Below are positions 1,982-5,157 of a stretch of DNA of 6,367 nt, piece by piece; position 1 is the first letter of the stretch; each line of letters opens with the position of its first letter. Source of the stretch: JBFLYE01 sp040756715 [NCBI: bacterium] (GTDB lineage: Bacteria > UBA9089 > UBA9088); the NCBI GenBank assembly GCA_040756715.1, contig JBFLYE010000098.1:1-6367 (forward strand). The letters run 5' to 3'. Below the pieces are notes generated by a model that saw only the letters and a program-made list of their open reading frames with translations, was not told where the DNA came from and searched no databases. The position numbers were made by a program, and so were the translations under genes.

Positions 1982-2452
1982 ATGAGACACATAATTTCTG
2001 TTTTGGTTGAAAATAAGTTTGGGGTATTGGCAAGGATTGCAGGGCTATTCTCTGGAAGGGGTTATAATATTGATTCCTTGTGTGTAGCGCCGACAGATGA
2101 CCCAACCCTCTCAAGGATGACGATTGTAACCCATGGAGAGGATAAGATAATTGAGCAAATTGAGAAGCAATTAAATAAGCTTATTAATACCTTAAAGGTT
2201 TCCGACCTTACCCATAAAGAGCATGTTGAGCGGGAGCTTGTCCTTATTAAGGTAAAGGGAGAAAAGAGAACCGAGATTATGGAGATAATTGATATTTTCA
2301 GGGCAAAGATTGTTGATGTGGGAACAAAGAGTTTAACCATTGAGACCACAGGCGATGAGGGAAAGATTAGTGCCTTTATTGAGCTGCTTAATCCTTATGG
2401 GATAATTGAGGTTGTAAGGACAGGAAAGATTGCCGTGGTAAGGGGCGAATAG
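1982..2452 (+). CDS. ilvN: Acetolactate synthase, small (regulatory) subunit
   Basis: The 156-aa protein activates the catalytic acetolactate synthase subunit (IlvB/IlvI) and gives valine feedback inhibition at the first common step of valine, leucine and isoleucine synthesis. The N-terminal ACT domain (about 2-76) has the family motifs [28 protein letters not shown] and LSRMTIV. Asn11 and Gly14, tied to valine binding in E. coli IlvH, are kept, so feedback control is probably intact. The C-terminal domain (about 82-155) has RELVLIKV and the closing TGKIAVVRG. Length is normal. The catalytic subunit, usually just upstream, is not in this window. The last codons GGC GAA TAG are also the start of the tRNA-Val gene. 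leuB on the other side of the promoter region fits a branched-chain amino acid locus. ilvH is an equivalent symbol. Confidence 0.95.
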
Positions 2453-2514
2453 CTCAGCGGGAGAGCGCCTGCCTTACACGCAGGAAGTCGTAGGTTCAAA
2501 TCCTGCTTCGCCCA
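2443..2514 (+). tRNA. tRNA-Val (anticodon UAC)
   Basis: A complete 72-nt cloverleaf. The acceptor stem GGGCGAA/TTCGCCC pairs in all seven positions, the D stem is GCTC/GAGC, the anticodon stem CCTGC/GCAGG carries loop CTTACAC with anticodon TAC (Val, reads GUA), and the T stem GTAGG/CCTGC has loop TTCAAAT. Discriminator is A (2514); CCA is not encoded. The first ten nucleotides lie inside ilvN, and U8-A9-G10 is the ilvN stop codon, so the tRNA must be cut out of the ilvN message unless it has a promoter within ilvN. It is followed by a non-coding element ending in a copy of its 3' end. Confidence 0.97.
2497..2514 (+). repeat. 18-bp direct repeat, copy 1 (3' end of tRNA-Val)
   Basis: CAAATCCTGCTTCGCCCA runs from tRNA position C56 to the discriminator base and recurs exactly at 2675-2692, 178 bp downstream. 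It marks the left border of element 1. Confidence 0.95.
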
Positions 2515-2692
2515 ATGGAAGAGAAAAGCCAGAAAGAAAGATTTAGCGTAAAGAGATGCTTAATATGGGAAACAAGAGGCAGGATTTGAAGGGAGCACCG
2601 CGATGCGACCTTATGGGAGCATCAATAGCGGTGCGGGTGGCCGACCCTCAACGAACGAAGTGAGTGGAGGGCGCCAAATCCTGCTTCGCCCA
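2515..2692 (+). mobile_element. Element 1: short structured insert behind tRNA-Val, bounded by copies of the tRNA 3' end
   Basis: A 178-bp stretch without a convincing gene (only a 24-codon frame from ATG 2515). Left to right: an A/G-rich linker (2515-2575); an inverted copy of the tRNA-Val T-arm, GCAGGATTTGAA (2579-2590); a hairpin GCACCGC/GCGGTGC (2595-2601 with 2628-2634) holding an inner GATGC/GCATC stem; a second hairpin (2645-2652 with 2664-2671, one mismatch) with loop GAACGAAGTGA; and the exact 18-nt copy of the tRNA 3' end (2675-2692). The inverted and direct copies form a closing stem 2576-2588/2675-2687 of 13 bp with one G-U. It could be a small non-autonomous integrative element or a structured RNA; 'mobile element' is inference from the duplicated tRNA end. 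Element 2 has the same plan. Confidence 0.5.
2675..2692 (+). repeat. 18-bp direct repeat, copy 2 of the tRNA-Val 3' end
   Basis: Identical to 2497-2514. Upstream bases differ (GCGC here, GGTT in the tRNA), so the duplication begins exactly at the T-loop C56; downstream bases also differ (TAGAT against ATGGA). It looks like an attachment-site half. Confidence 0.93.
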
Positions 2693-2731
2693 TAGATAAC
2701 TTAAAGCTCATCACTTCAAATTTTATTATAT

Positions 2732-2806
2732 GGGGTGGTGGTGTAGCCAGGTTAACACATCAGGCTGTCAATCTGAAGATCGCGGGTTCAAATCCCGTTC
2801 ACCCCG
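2732..2806 (+). tRNA. tRNA-Asp (anticodon GUC)
   Basis: A complete 75-nt cloverleaf. The acceptor stem GGGGTGG/TCACCCC pairs with one G-U, the D stem is GTGT/ACAC, the anticodon stem TCAGG/TCTGA has loop CTGTCAA with anticodon GTC (Asp), the variable loop is AGATC, and the T stem GCGGG/CCCGT has loop TTCAAAT. Discriminator is G (2806), as expected for tRNA-Asp; CCA is not encoded. No promoter at a workable distance is visible, so it is probably read through from ilvN and tRNA-Val across element 1. Confidence 0.97.
2789..2806 (+). repeat. 18-bp direct repeat, copy 1 (3' end of tRNA-Asp)
   Basis: CAAATCCCGTTCACCCCG runs from tRNA position C56 to the discriminator and recurs exactly at 2995-3012, 206 bp downstream. 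The boundaries are the same tRNA positions as in the tRNA-Val repeat. Confidence 0.95.
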
Positions 2807-2933
2807 GTGTAGAAAAAATTGAAGAGGGAAAAAGAATATGATTGTAAGAAGAATTATGGAGTGGAGAAAGGGATTTGAAGCCAGCCGAACGCCGAGCAAG
2901 TGCGAGGATGAAGTGAGGCTGGCCGCGAACAAG

Positions 2934-2986
2934 AGATTTTGTTAGGCTATGAGGGAGCAAAGCGACCGAAGAGCCTTAGAAAATCT
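2934..2986 (+). other. Strong hairpin inside element 2
   Basis: Arms AGATTTTGTTAGGCT and AGCCTTAGAAAATCT pair in 13 of 15 positions around a 23-nt purine-rich loop containing GGGAGCAAAGCGACC. No T-run follows it, so it is not an ordinary terminator. Confidence 0.7.
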
Positions 2987-2994
2987 GAAGTTCA

Positions 2995-3012
2995 CAAATC
3001 CCGTTCACCCCG
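2995..3012 (+). repeat. 18-bp direct repeat, copy 2 of the tRNA-Asp 3' end
   Basis: Identical to 2789-2806. It marks the right border of element 2; the possible methyltransferase remnant begins immediately after it. Confidence 0.93.
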
Positions 3013-3030
3013 TTAACTCTGAAAACTAGG

Positions 3031-3159
3031 ATGGAAGATAGACAAAGAAGTACATACTGCGATTTGGCGATAAAACGATTAAAACAAGAAGCAAAAATTA
3101 ACCAAACGGCTTTGTTTTATGAAGAAAAAAAGAAAAACAATCAAGGATTGGTTAATTGA
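3031..3159 (+). pseudogene. Possible C-terminal remnant of a DNA methyltransferase
   Basis: A 42-codon frame from ATG 3031 ends at TGA 3157-3159; the same frame stays open upstream to a TGA at 2986-2988. The middle, STYCDLAIKRLKQE, followed by a tail with NQTALFYEE, resembles the last helix and tail of N4-cytosine/N6-adenine DNA methyltransferases (often YCE-A-RL near the C-terminus, then a short tail ending LF). All catalytic motifs are absent, so at best it is a fragment cut off near the right border of element 2. It overlaps the start of the next gene by 41 nt in another frame, as adjacent methyltransferase and endonuclease genes often do. The match is short; a chance frame is the alternative. 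Confidence 0.35.
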
Positions 3160-3391
3160 ATATTTTAAAGCCCACCCAAAAGAGGATATGCCACATGGCC
3201 CTGTGGTTGATTGGGTAGAAGCACGATATAAACAGCTTTACAACAAAAAACCAAGGGATACTTGGAGGTCAATTAGAAATCTGCACGAAAGCGGATTTTT
3301 AATAAAGGTTAAAAAGGGAATTTATCGTTATGACCCCGAAGCAGCCAAACAACGAGAATATATTAACAACCATATTCTCTGGAAAAGATAA
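3119..3391 (+). CDS. Winged-helix protein resembling the N-terminus of an HNH-type endonuclease, probably truncated
   Basis: A 90-aa basic protein. Residues about 7-72 (TIKDWLIEYFKAHPKEDMPH, then VVDWVEARY, PRDTWRSIRNLHESGFLIKV and KKGIYRYDPE) look like a winged-helix DNA-binding domain: a helix, a PHGPVVDWV segment, a recognition helix RSIRNLHESG and a beta wing ending GIYRYDP. From memory this domain precedes an HNH nuclease domain in some restriction-type endonucleases. Here the frame ends about 18 residues after the domain, so no nuclease motif is present. It stops 3 nt before murB, which suggests the rest was deleted when murB was joined or the fragment arrived. No Shine-Dalgarno sequence precedes the ATG. 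It may be a remnant or a free-standing DNA-binding protein. Confidence 0.6.
   Translation: MKKKRKTIKDWLIEYFKAHPKEDMPHGPVVDWVEARYKQLYNKKPRDTWRSIRNLHESGFLIKVKKGIYRYDPEAAKQREYINNHILWKR
3354..3379 (+). other. Perfect 8-bp inverted repeat just upstream of murB
   Basis: GAGAATAT (3354-3361) and ATATTCTC (3372-3379) flank a 10-nt spacer and end 15 nt before the murB ATG, inside the last codons of the 90-aa gene. It may be an operator or a 5'-leader hairpin for murB. No T-run follows it, so it is not a terminator. Confidence 0.45.
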
Positions 3392-3394
3392 ACA

Positions 3395-4246
3395 ATGGAT
3401 AGTCTAATTAAAGAAAACATCCCTATGAGAGAATACACCTCCCTAAAGGTGGGAGGAAGGGCAAGGTGGTTTGCAACCCCATCAAATAAAGAAGAATTAA
3501 AAAAGGTTTTGCAATTTGCAAAGGAGAAAGATATTCCCATTTTTCTTCTGGGCGGTGGAACAAATACATTGATAAAGGATGAGGGTGTTAGGGGGATGGT
3601 AATAAAATTGGATGGTGATTTTAAAAATATAGAGAGACAAGGCATAGAAGTTAAAGCTGGCAGTGGAGCTTCCCTTCCCTCCCTTATAAGCTATTGCCAG
3701 GGTTTTTCCCTTTCTGGATTAGAAAACCTTGCTGGAATTCCTGGTGCAGTGGGTGGTGCTATCTTTGGAAATGCCGGTGCCTTTGGAACACAAATTGGAG
3801 ATTATGTCAAGTCCGTTGTTGTTATGGACAGGGATGGAAATGAAAGGAGGGTAAGGGATATAAACTTTTTCTATCGGGGAAGCAGCTTAAAAGACACAAT
3901 AATCCTTGAAGCCTTGTTTTCTCTAAAAGAAGATGCGCGGTGGAGGATTGATGAAAAAATAGCAAGCGTTTTAAGTAAAAGAAGGGAAACCCAGCCTATT
4001 TCAAAGCAAACAGCAGGCTGTATATTCAAGAATCCGGAGGGAAAATTTGCCGGAGAGCTTATTGAAAAGGCAGGATTGAAGGGAAGGTCTATAAAAGATG
4101 CAATTGTTTCCCTAAAGCATGCAAACTTTATTGAAAATAGAGGCCAGGCAAAGGCAGAAGATATTCTCCAATTGATAAGATTTATAAAAAGAAGGGTTTG
4201 GGAGCTTTATGGAGTTATGCTCTATGAGGAGATTGTTATAATATGA
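3395..4246 (+). CDS. murB: UDP-N-acetylmuramate dehydrogenase (UDP-N-acetylenolpyruvoylglucosamine reductase)
   Basis: MurB reduces UDP-GlcNAc-enolpyruvate to UDP-MurNAc with NADPH and FAD, the second committed step of peptidoglycan synthesis, in the cytoplasm. The 283-aa protein has YTSLKVGG (14-21), the FAD loop LLGGGTNTLI (51-60), GLENLAGIPGAVGGAIFGNA (108-127), FFYRGS with Arg161, AGCIFKNP (207-214), KHANF (241-245) and a C-terminal GVMLYEEI with Glu279. The proton-donor position, Ser229 in E. coli, is Cys209, a known variant in shorter MurBs. The length and motif set fit the short type II enzymes. The start is 3 nt after the winged-helix gene with no clear Shine-Dalgarno sequence. Its stop overlaps the ABC ATPase start (ATGA). 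murC and ddl, common neighbours elsewhere, are absent here. Confidence 0.96.
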   Translation: MDSLIKENIPMREYTSLKVGGRARWFATPSNKEELKKVLQFAKEKDIPIFLLGGGTNTLIKDEGVRGMVIKLDGDFKNIERQGIEVKAGSGASLPSLISYCQGFSLSGLENLAGIPGAVGGAIFGNAGAFGTQIGDYVKSVVVMDRDGNERRVRDINFFYRGSSLKDTIILEALFSLKEDARWRIDEKIASVLSKRRETQPISKQTAGCIFKNPEGKFAGELIEKAGLKGRSIKDAIVSLKHANFIENRGQAKAEDILQLIRFIKRRVWELYGVMLYEEIVII

Positions 4247-5157
4247 ATCCTTTGCTTTCCATAAAAAATCTTAATGTTTCTTACGGAAAAACCCATGTGG
4301 TAAGAAATGCAGGCCTTAATATCCTTGAGAAGGAAACCGTTGGTCTTATCGGAGAGAGTGGCTCGGGAAAGACAACCATTGCCCTATCTATAATGGGGCT
4401 TCTTCCAAAGGATGCGAATGCATCGGGAGAAATTAGCTACAAAGAAAAAAACCTCTTCCTTTTGAAAGAGAAGGAAATTAACAAAATAAGGGGATGCGAG
4501 ATAGGTATTATCTTTCAAGACCCTGTCTCCTCCCTTGACCCATTATTTCCCATTAAAGAGCAGATAAAAGAGACAATAATTAGCCATTTAGACATCTCAA
4601 AAAAGGAGGTAGAAGAAAGAATAGAAGGGCTTCTTAAGAAGGTTGGAATACAAAAGATAAGGCTAAATGAATATCCCCATTCATTTTCAGGTGGGATGTG
4701 TCAGAGGATAATGATTGCCCAGGCAATCTCGGGAAATCCAAAGCTTCTCATTGCCGATGAGCCAACATCTTCACTTGATACAACAATTCAGGCACAAATA
4801 ATGAACCTCTTGCACAATCTTAAAGAAGAACTTGAAATTGCCATCCTTCTCATTACCCATGACCTTTCCATAATTGCCCAAATGGCAGATTATGTCTATG
4901 TTATATATTCTGGAGAAATCATTGAATCAGCTTCCTGCCTTGAAATATTTGACAATCCTTTCCATCCATATACAAAAGCCCTTATTGATAGCATCCCGAA
5001 AAAGGGAAAACCTTTTTCTTCTATAAGTGATATGGAAATTTTGGAGAATAAACCCTGTAGGTTCTATTCAAGGTGCAAAGAGAAAACCAGCCTTTGTGAA
5101 AAGGAAGCCCCAGAAATAAAGAAAATGGGAAATCATTATGTAAGGTGCCATAAATAA
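4243..5157 (+). CDS. Oligopeptide/dipeptide ABC transporter ATP-binding protein (OppD/DppD type)
   Basis: This is an ATPase subunit of a peptide-type ABC importer on the inner face of the cytoplasmic membrane. In order: Walker A GESGSGKTT (37-45), Q-loop FQDP (91-94), signature FSGGMCQRI (148-156, with Cys where the family usually has Arg), Walker B LLIADEP (168-174), D-loop SSLD and H-loop Thr205-His206-Asp207. The C-terminal Opp/Dpp extension (about 232-304) contains NPFHPYTKALIDSIP and four Cys (272, 278, 285, 302), the pattern that binds an iron-sulfur cluster in DppD-type proteins. At 304 aa it is slightly short. A GAGGAGA ribosome site lies 10 nt before the ATG, inside murB; the ATGA overlap implies coupling. 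No permease, binding protein or OppF partner follows, so these lie elsewhere or the role is unclear. Substrates could also be nickel or sugars. Confidence 0.92.
   Translation: MNPLLSIKNLNVSYGKTHVVRNAGLNILEKETVGLIGESGSGKTTIALSIMGLLPKDANASGEISYKEKNLFLLKEKEINKIRGCEIGIIFQDPVSSLDPLFPIKEQIKETIISHLDISKKEVEERIEGLLKKVGIQKIRLNEYPHSFSGGMCQRIMIAQAISGNPKLLIADEPTSSLDTTIQAQIMNLLHNLKEELEIAILLITHDLSIIAQMADYVYVIYSGEIIESASCLEIFDNPFHPYTKALIDSIPKKGKPFSSISDMEILENKPCRFYSRCKEKTSLCEKEAPEIKKMGNHYVRCHK

Follow-up and report, generated by a model that had tools for sequence, protein, structure and literature searches.

The elements that follow tRNA-Val and tRNA-Asp in the 6,367-nucleotide stretch of DNA analysed here (the window) are a variant of a known, poorly understood kind of repeat that has the layout of E. 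coli RtT and is here spread over many tRNAs. The window is one contig of a 1.55-Mb draft genome (G000; assembly 96% complete) of an uncultivated bacterium. When up to 450 nt downstream of all 37 tRNA genes of this genome were read, 14 of the genes proved to precede an element that ends with a copy of the 3' end of that same tRNA. The initial annotation had proposed a family of minimal elements, each copying the end of its tRNA, and such a family indeed exists, in this genome as well as in its relatives and some distant bacteria. It had overlooked the inverted arm with which nearly every element begins, the three-way junction that the family conserves and the known case at E. coli tyrT.

At tRNA-Val(UAC) (2443-2514, plus strand, as are tRNA-Asp and all parts of both elements; called by ARAGORN, Rfam tRNA 73.4 bits), nucleotides 2497-2514 recur exactly at 2675-2692, with a start-to-start spacing of 178. 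At tRNA-Asp(GUC) (2731-2807; ARAGORN, Rfam tRNA 65.1 bits), 2789-2806 recur at 2995-3012, with a spacing of 206. Our analysis confirmed the coordinates and spacing of these two exact 18-mers, which had already been noted as running from C56 to base 73 of their own tRNA (numbering taken from the T-loop TTC). Both elements follow a common plan of tRNA, spacer, inverted arm, hairpins and direct copy, although their body sequences differ. The Val spacer (2515-2575), unconserved in the family but also present at tRNA-Val(CAC) in this genome, leads to a left arm that is an inverted copy of the tRNA-Val T-arm (2576-2590, from inverted repeats). A body of predicted GC-rich hairpins (2591-2674; for example 2595-2601 with 2628-2634) comes next, weakly matched at 28 bits by R1, a covariance model that we built from 12 elements, and the direct copy of positions 56-73 at 2675-2692 closes the element. 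In the Asp element, an equally unconserved spacer (2808-2862) precedes a left arm, likewise recognized from inverted repeats, that comprises the inverted T-arm and part of the acceptor strand (2863-2882). Alignment and structure of the elements place there a P2 hairpin (2880-2923; tip motif GA-GC-AAGT-GC-GA) and a P3 hairpin (2927-2993; GAAC..GATTTTGTTAGGC..GCCTTAGAAAATC..GTTC, tip motif GA-GC-AAA-GC-GA), followed by the exact direct copy of positions 56-73 (2995-3012), which pairs with the left arm as P1. Both elements folded more stably than shuffled sequences (z -3.2 for Val, -4.5 for Asp). Directly after the Asp element, a 90-aa open reading frame (3119-3391) weakly resembles AbiEi_4, with a match that falls short of the cut-off (E 0.038).

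Behind nine tRNA genes of the genome, namely Gly-UCC, Val-UAC, His, Gly-CCC, Glu-UUC, Val-GAC, Ala-CGC, Asp and Leu-UAA, the last 18 nt of the tRNA recur exactly at a distance of 132-188 nt. The copies are imperfect at Trp and Leu-GAG (17/18), Val-CAC (16) and Met (contig C206; 15), and the Tyr copy has one inserted base. Pro-UGG has an element that lost its right end and is without a copy, and Gln-UUG (contig C35, tRNA at 4471-4542) is followed by a decayed remnant and, separately, by an 11-nt duplication of its acceptor end starting 7 nt past the tRNA. We scored such copies by comparing the last 20 nt of each tRNA with the 330 nt downstream, with downstream tRNAs masked. A score of at least 12 arose in 1 of 360 control comparisons that used a different tRNA from that genome, against 12 of 37 real pairs in the own genome; 15 of 37 reached at least 11, including the different, 11-nt duplication at Gln-UUG. 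Scores of at least 12 were also reached at 9 of 42 tRNAs in G001 (same genus), 6 of 37 in G002 (same family), 12 of 31 examined tRNAs in the rumen genome G041 and 2 of 10 in G042; for the same-order genomes G003 (1 of 1) and G004 (2 of 5), the loci had been chosen for holding an element. The tRNAs scored were 37 of 37 in the window's own genome, 42 of 43 in G001, 37 of 37 in G002, 31 of 38 in G041 and 10 of 17 in G042, and at least 200 nt of downstream sequence was available for 36, 41, 31, 29 and 9 of these, respectively; G000-G004 are all draft assemblies.

Searches with R1 agreed with this distribution, giving 15 matches in the own genome, 17 in G001, 11 in G002, 1 in G003 and 3 in G004, and none in G005, G006, G009, G014 and G018. 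Single weak matches in G007 (Cys) and G008 (Val-GAC) are elements behind a tRNA with exact copies. All 14 sense-strand matches in the own genome sit behind a tRNA; antisense matches, which lie on other elements, account for 1 of the 15 there and 2 of the 17 in G001. In a random sample of 89 tRNA loci, three scored at least 17 (one in G001, one at locus L244) against a control maximum of 9, so that the feature is rare in such a sample and the class is scattered rather than universal. We excluded L244 (Lys, G026), as its left arm by eye resembles part of an antisense tRNA. A scan of genome contigs for the P3 pattern yielded 80 stretches, and a tRNA-copy scan of these and of six viral stretches covered 30 tRNAs. 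Own copies appeared there in G002, G004 and loci L167 and L182, the plan in the latter two lying at the tRNA and not at the pattern match; rows for L114, L197 and one for L149 merely reflected neighbouring tRNAs and were discarded. The window element had no match among phage records.

The initial annotation had called for a comparison of loci with and without an element in relatives, and both states occur. At Gly-UCC, Gly-CCC and Leu-UAA the element is absent in G001, and the sequence that there comes right after the tRNA corresponds to the one that lies past the right-hand copy in the own genome; the comparison at Glu-UUC agrees, with extra differences. For Asp of the window, a local alignment matches the sequence past 3012 to the flank of the element-free tRNA-Asp in G001 at a score of 44 (at most 31 in 200 shuffles), and the left spacer reaches 17 against the same flank, that is, no alignment. 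The second 3'-end copy therefore adjoins the flank that directly follows the tRNA in the empty site, so that the added unit consists of positions 56-73, spacer, inverted arm and body, with the tRNA left intact. At Gly-UCC, 34 nt of spacer are also duplicated in the own genome, but not in G001. Clear synteny between the two genomes was not found at Val-GAC.

Repeats that run from C56, within the T-loop, as far as base 73, together with empty sites of this form, fit tyrosine-integrase elements of the IME or CIME type, which share with ours a direct repeat from T-loop to 3' end and a restored tRNA. The elements might accordingly be remnants of such classical elements after crossover in the T-loop. 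We consider this improbable, since own copies stand at 14 different tRNA genes of one genome and the inverted arms follow the tRNA. In contrast to integrase elements, ours are gene-less, measure roughly 80-170 bp from arm to copy and have arms that differ per tRNA. Neither the elements nor the own genome revealed a dedicated integrase; the two tyrosine recombinase matches of this genome are of Xer type: one exceeds the XerD cut-off, the other is nearest to XerC without reaching the cut-off of that model, and both also pass the XerA model. Of tyrosine recombinases, Y1 transposases, reverse transcriptases and Cas1, only tyrosine recombinases occurred in all of G000-G004, G007, G008 and G041, and they occurred in every control genome too. 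Gene-bearing or far versions were not seen: among 394 tRNA occurrences in the loci analysed the best extra-tRNA copy lay no more than 356 nt downstream, in a scan that took one best copy per tRNA and strand, included many short flanks and could miss a far copy beside a near one. The repeat counted from C56 varies from 18 to more than 50 nt across elements, which neither a fixed att core nor a fixed-stagger transposase predicts. The initial annotation had argued that one fixed attP cannot serve different tRNAs each with its own copy, and this part of its reading stands, as does the minimal-element family, of which filled and empty sites exist in relatives. The integrase acting in trans for which it suggested looking is not supported: the tyrosine recombinases of the own genome are all of Xer type, and neither a Y1 transposase nor a reverse transcriptase was matched there.

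Arms and bodies behave differently with respect to the tRNA. In 30 elements from four genomes, the nine-base left arm matched its own tRNA at 8.1 of 9 positions and other tRNAs of the same genome at 6.5, and none of 2000 permutations reached the observed sum; these counts retain one row (G002 Lys) for which the wrong arm was used. Body identity between genomes, in contrast, was no higher for one and the same tRNA (0.597, n=12) than for different tRNAs (0.595, n=252). Between the own genome and G001, spacer and arm were 0.975 identical at Tyr, 0.79 at Leu-GAG and 0.77 at Ala-CGC, with bodies at 0.593, 0.62 and 0.69, respectively. Thus, bodies and arms have had separate histories. An exception is Leu-UAA, whose bodies in the own genome and G002 are 0.874 identical, as plain descent predicts. 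Bodies that are 88-92% identical are common to unrelated tRNAs of one genome, and those at Tyr and Gly-UCC of the own genome differ at 1 of 117 bases with different arms, a likeness that local gene conversion can explain because both lie in one tRNA cluster. We dropped the idea that bodies follow the genome, as identity within the same genome (0.635, n=142) barely exceeds that between genomes and the own genome has long and short bodies. By eye, a truncated second unit of the other body type comes after the direct copy behind Tyr and Val-GAC of the own genome.

A direct copy that is target-derived and of variable length would also arise from transposon-like insertion with a long target-site duplication, driven by Cas1-type (casposase) or reverse-transcriptase machinery that favours tRNA ends. 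Casposons do prefer such ends, where they create target-site duplications, and Cas1 and reverse transcriptase matches occur in both G001 and G002. Constant terminal inverted repeats and a casposase would be expected of them; the arms described here instead follow the target, and duplication leaves the inverted arm unexplained. Neither Cas1 nor reverse transcriptase was matched in the incomplete assemblies of G003, G004, G008, G041 and G042, and the own genome, itself a draft, gave no reverse transcriptase match and only partial matches to Cas1. We give this explanation little credence. In G002 (contig C109, 1657-3183), a single 881-aa frame of the RT-Cas1 fusion type contains adjacent matches to Cas1 and reverse transcriptase. 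The elements also recall the REP/RAYT palindromes, which are small, dispersed, gene-less hairpin repeats, but a Y1 transposase was not matched in any of G000-G004 and, unlike dispersed repeats, the 14 sense matches to R1 are all tied to tRNAs. Likeness to an integron attC was rejected: GTTAGGC resembles the core-site motif, but its partner GCCTTAG stands, by eye, in the wrong order.

The alignment supports a three-way junction of helices P1, P2 and P3, where P1 is formed by the inverted arm and the direct copy. Standard pairs filled 92.4% of the alignment cells of 12 elements, compared with 83.9% in shuffles and 25-54% with slid partners; P1 was 97.5% paired over the same 12. Sixteen pairs changed on both sides, and this covariation shows that the sequence maintains the junction, with its inverted arm paired to the direct copy. 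The hairpin tips carry a loop bordered on either side by two paired bases and, outside these, by GA. In P3 both GA steps are the same in all 12 elements, and 11 of 12 conform strictly to GA-SS-loop-SS-GA at the level of sequence. The sense fold was more stable than the antisense fold in 32 of 35 elements, a set made of the best 37 by score of 52 aligned matches minus duplicates. G-U pairs outnumbered A-C mismatches 22 to 12 without one non-pairing column pair, and stood at 22 to 32 with it; this modest excess leaves both an RNA and a single-stranded DNA reading of the junction viable.

In E. coli K-12, one unit of the same layout lies between tyrT and tyrV and three more lie past tyrV; the Rfam RtT model (RF00391) matches all four at 132.9-137.5 bits. 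The closing stem of this model pairs GGGGAAGGAU, the inverted arm, with AUCCUUCCCC from the copy; the model ends at the CCA of the copy, as does the annotated rttR RNA. Strain NZ_CP148282.1 has no unit at tyrT/tyrV, and there the flank TCTCAAGCATTACC directly follows the CCA of tyrT; in K-12 the element intervenes and the same flank lies past the copy, which resolves the empty site at base level. RtT sequence is present in 4695 of 5426 E. coli genomes, at 1-14 places each (median 3), and RF00391 matched 27 of 143 Gammaproteobacteria genomes at E<=0.001, 7 of them above the gathering score. Thirty Gammaproteobacteria loci were returned and all were analysed. An upstream tRNA was present at 28 of them (16 Ser, 8 Gln, 3 Tyr and 1 Glu, two rows having one tRNA in common, in G164), and 24 of the 28 copied the end of that tRNA (score of at least 12), mostly over 18-19 nt with CCA. 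The control with other tRNAs reached the same score in 55 of 436 comparisons, a rate raised by 3' ends that different Ser tRNAs have in common. E. coli RtT matched one phage record, labelled Salmonella, and 28 plasmid records; among the ten matches listed, three were chromosome-sized.

The likeness of the window elements to RtT extends from the layout to tandem copies and to empty sites of the same form. The features compared were a position downstream of a tRNA with a copy of its own 3' end, a closing stem of inverted arm and copy, and a tandem GA motif (by sequence); each is present. The tandem GA motif of RtT is described in the accessible part of one report (PMC7657543). The window elements nevertheless differ from RtT in body sequence and in starting their copy at C56 without CCA, the RtT copy beginning at about A58 and including it. 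They also stand at 14 tRNA genes of one genome, compared with the four units at tyrT/tyrV in K-12, the only region of that genome looked at. RF00391 found nothing at E<=1 in window positions 2000-3500 or in 17 genomes including the own one, so that the window elements work like RtT without being filed as its members; direct membership in RF00391 is not supported. To our knowledge, and as our literature search also shows, the tyrT repeats of E. coli have been regarded as peculiar to one operon, although a few other tRNAs have been noted to have Rfam matches nearby. The literature within reach of that search, which lacked most subscription papers, does not describe RtT or such repeats as a class that follows tRNAs.

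A conserved, covarying fold raises the question of whether the elements are immobile, functional tRNA-linked RNAs under selection that arose by local duplication of the 3' part of a tRNA and whose bodies became alike through gene conversion. The resemblance of spacer and arm at the orthologous Tyr, Leu-GAG and Ala-CGC genes of the own genome and G001 would suit this, as would the detection of RtT RNAs by Northern blotting in a member of the Pasteurellaceae, according to the available part of that study (PMC4986893). We nonetheless hold it to be a minority possibility. The presence of the element varies between species at many tRNAs, and the 88-92% identical bodies at unrelated tRNAs of one genome run against immobility. 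In the rumen genome G041, furthermore, a terminator-like hairpin with a T-run lies between tRNA and element, and again after the copy, in 7 of 12 elements, making a read-through RNA unlikely in that genome; in several of these the two terminator-like stretches are near-identical. The G041 elements include more than one body type, and one (Met) is without an inverted arm.

The explanation that we favour, with some confidence, is that the elements are tRNA-anchored, gene-less, structured repeats of RtT layout that are probably added and re-armed by host processes and, in the own genome, perhaps read through as RNA. Units would multiply in tandem by recombination between 3'-end copies, and bodies could be exchanged by recombination as well. 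The arms may be rewritten from the tRNA as host replication or repair copies at the T-arm hairpin, a step that would need no dedicated enzyme. No element was seen to move. In the own genome, the element might be transcribed together with its tRNA and the transcript processed at the second 3' end, by analogy with the annotated RttR RNA of E. coli. As for what such an RNA may do, the best lead, also by analogy, is the role in the stringent response that reports suggest among RtT RNA functions, as far as the accessible text of PMC4986893 goes.

A broader proposition is more tentative, and we put it forward as a possibility that is rather less probable than not: that these repeats form a bacterial class present in several distant groups, with E. 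coli RtT as one branch, that is enzyme-less, has its arms rewritten from the target tRNA by copying at the T-arm hairpin, and can place one body behind almost any tRNA. With the RtT layout behind 14 tRNA genes of an uncultivated bacterium, copies after 12 of the 31 examined tRNAs of a rumen bacterium and RtT matches behind Ser, Gln, Tyr and Glu tRNAs, RtT becomes a general class with a testable rule, namely that arms track the tRNA and bodies do not. The question that this raises is how a gene-less element acquires arms made from its own target. On the practical side, where RtT matches stand behind other tRNAs, "processed from tyrT transcript", as the E. coli annotation puts it, would be misleading.

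Several minor observations were made along the way. In several G041 inverted arms, GAGA or TCTC stands in place of the T-loop TCGA, much as it does in E. coli RtT (GGATGAGAA); it looks as though the core of the target had been spoiled. At locus L025 (G036), tRNA-Glu (1490-1565) is followed by a 24-nt copy of the tRNA end within a repeat extending 73 nt past the tRNA, and by a GA-GC-loop-GC-GA hairpin; an inverted arm is not clear there. Short sequences of the GCGAAGCG type were seen by eye just upstream of tRNA-Phe (C39), tRNA-Cys (C49) and tRNA-Tyr (C176) of the own genome. Finally, the accessible part of a Salmonella study (PMC2658671) reports a 175-bp VNTR within rtT RNA as well as one of 220 bp at a tRNA-Gly, and the latter may be another such array.
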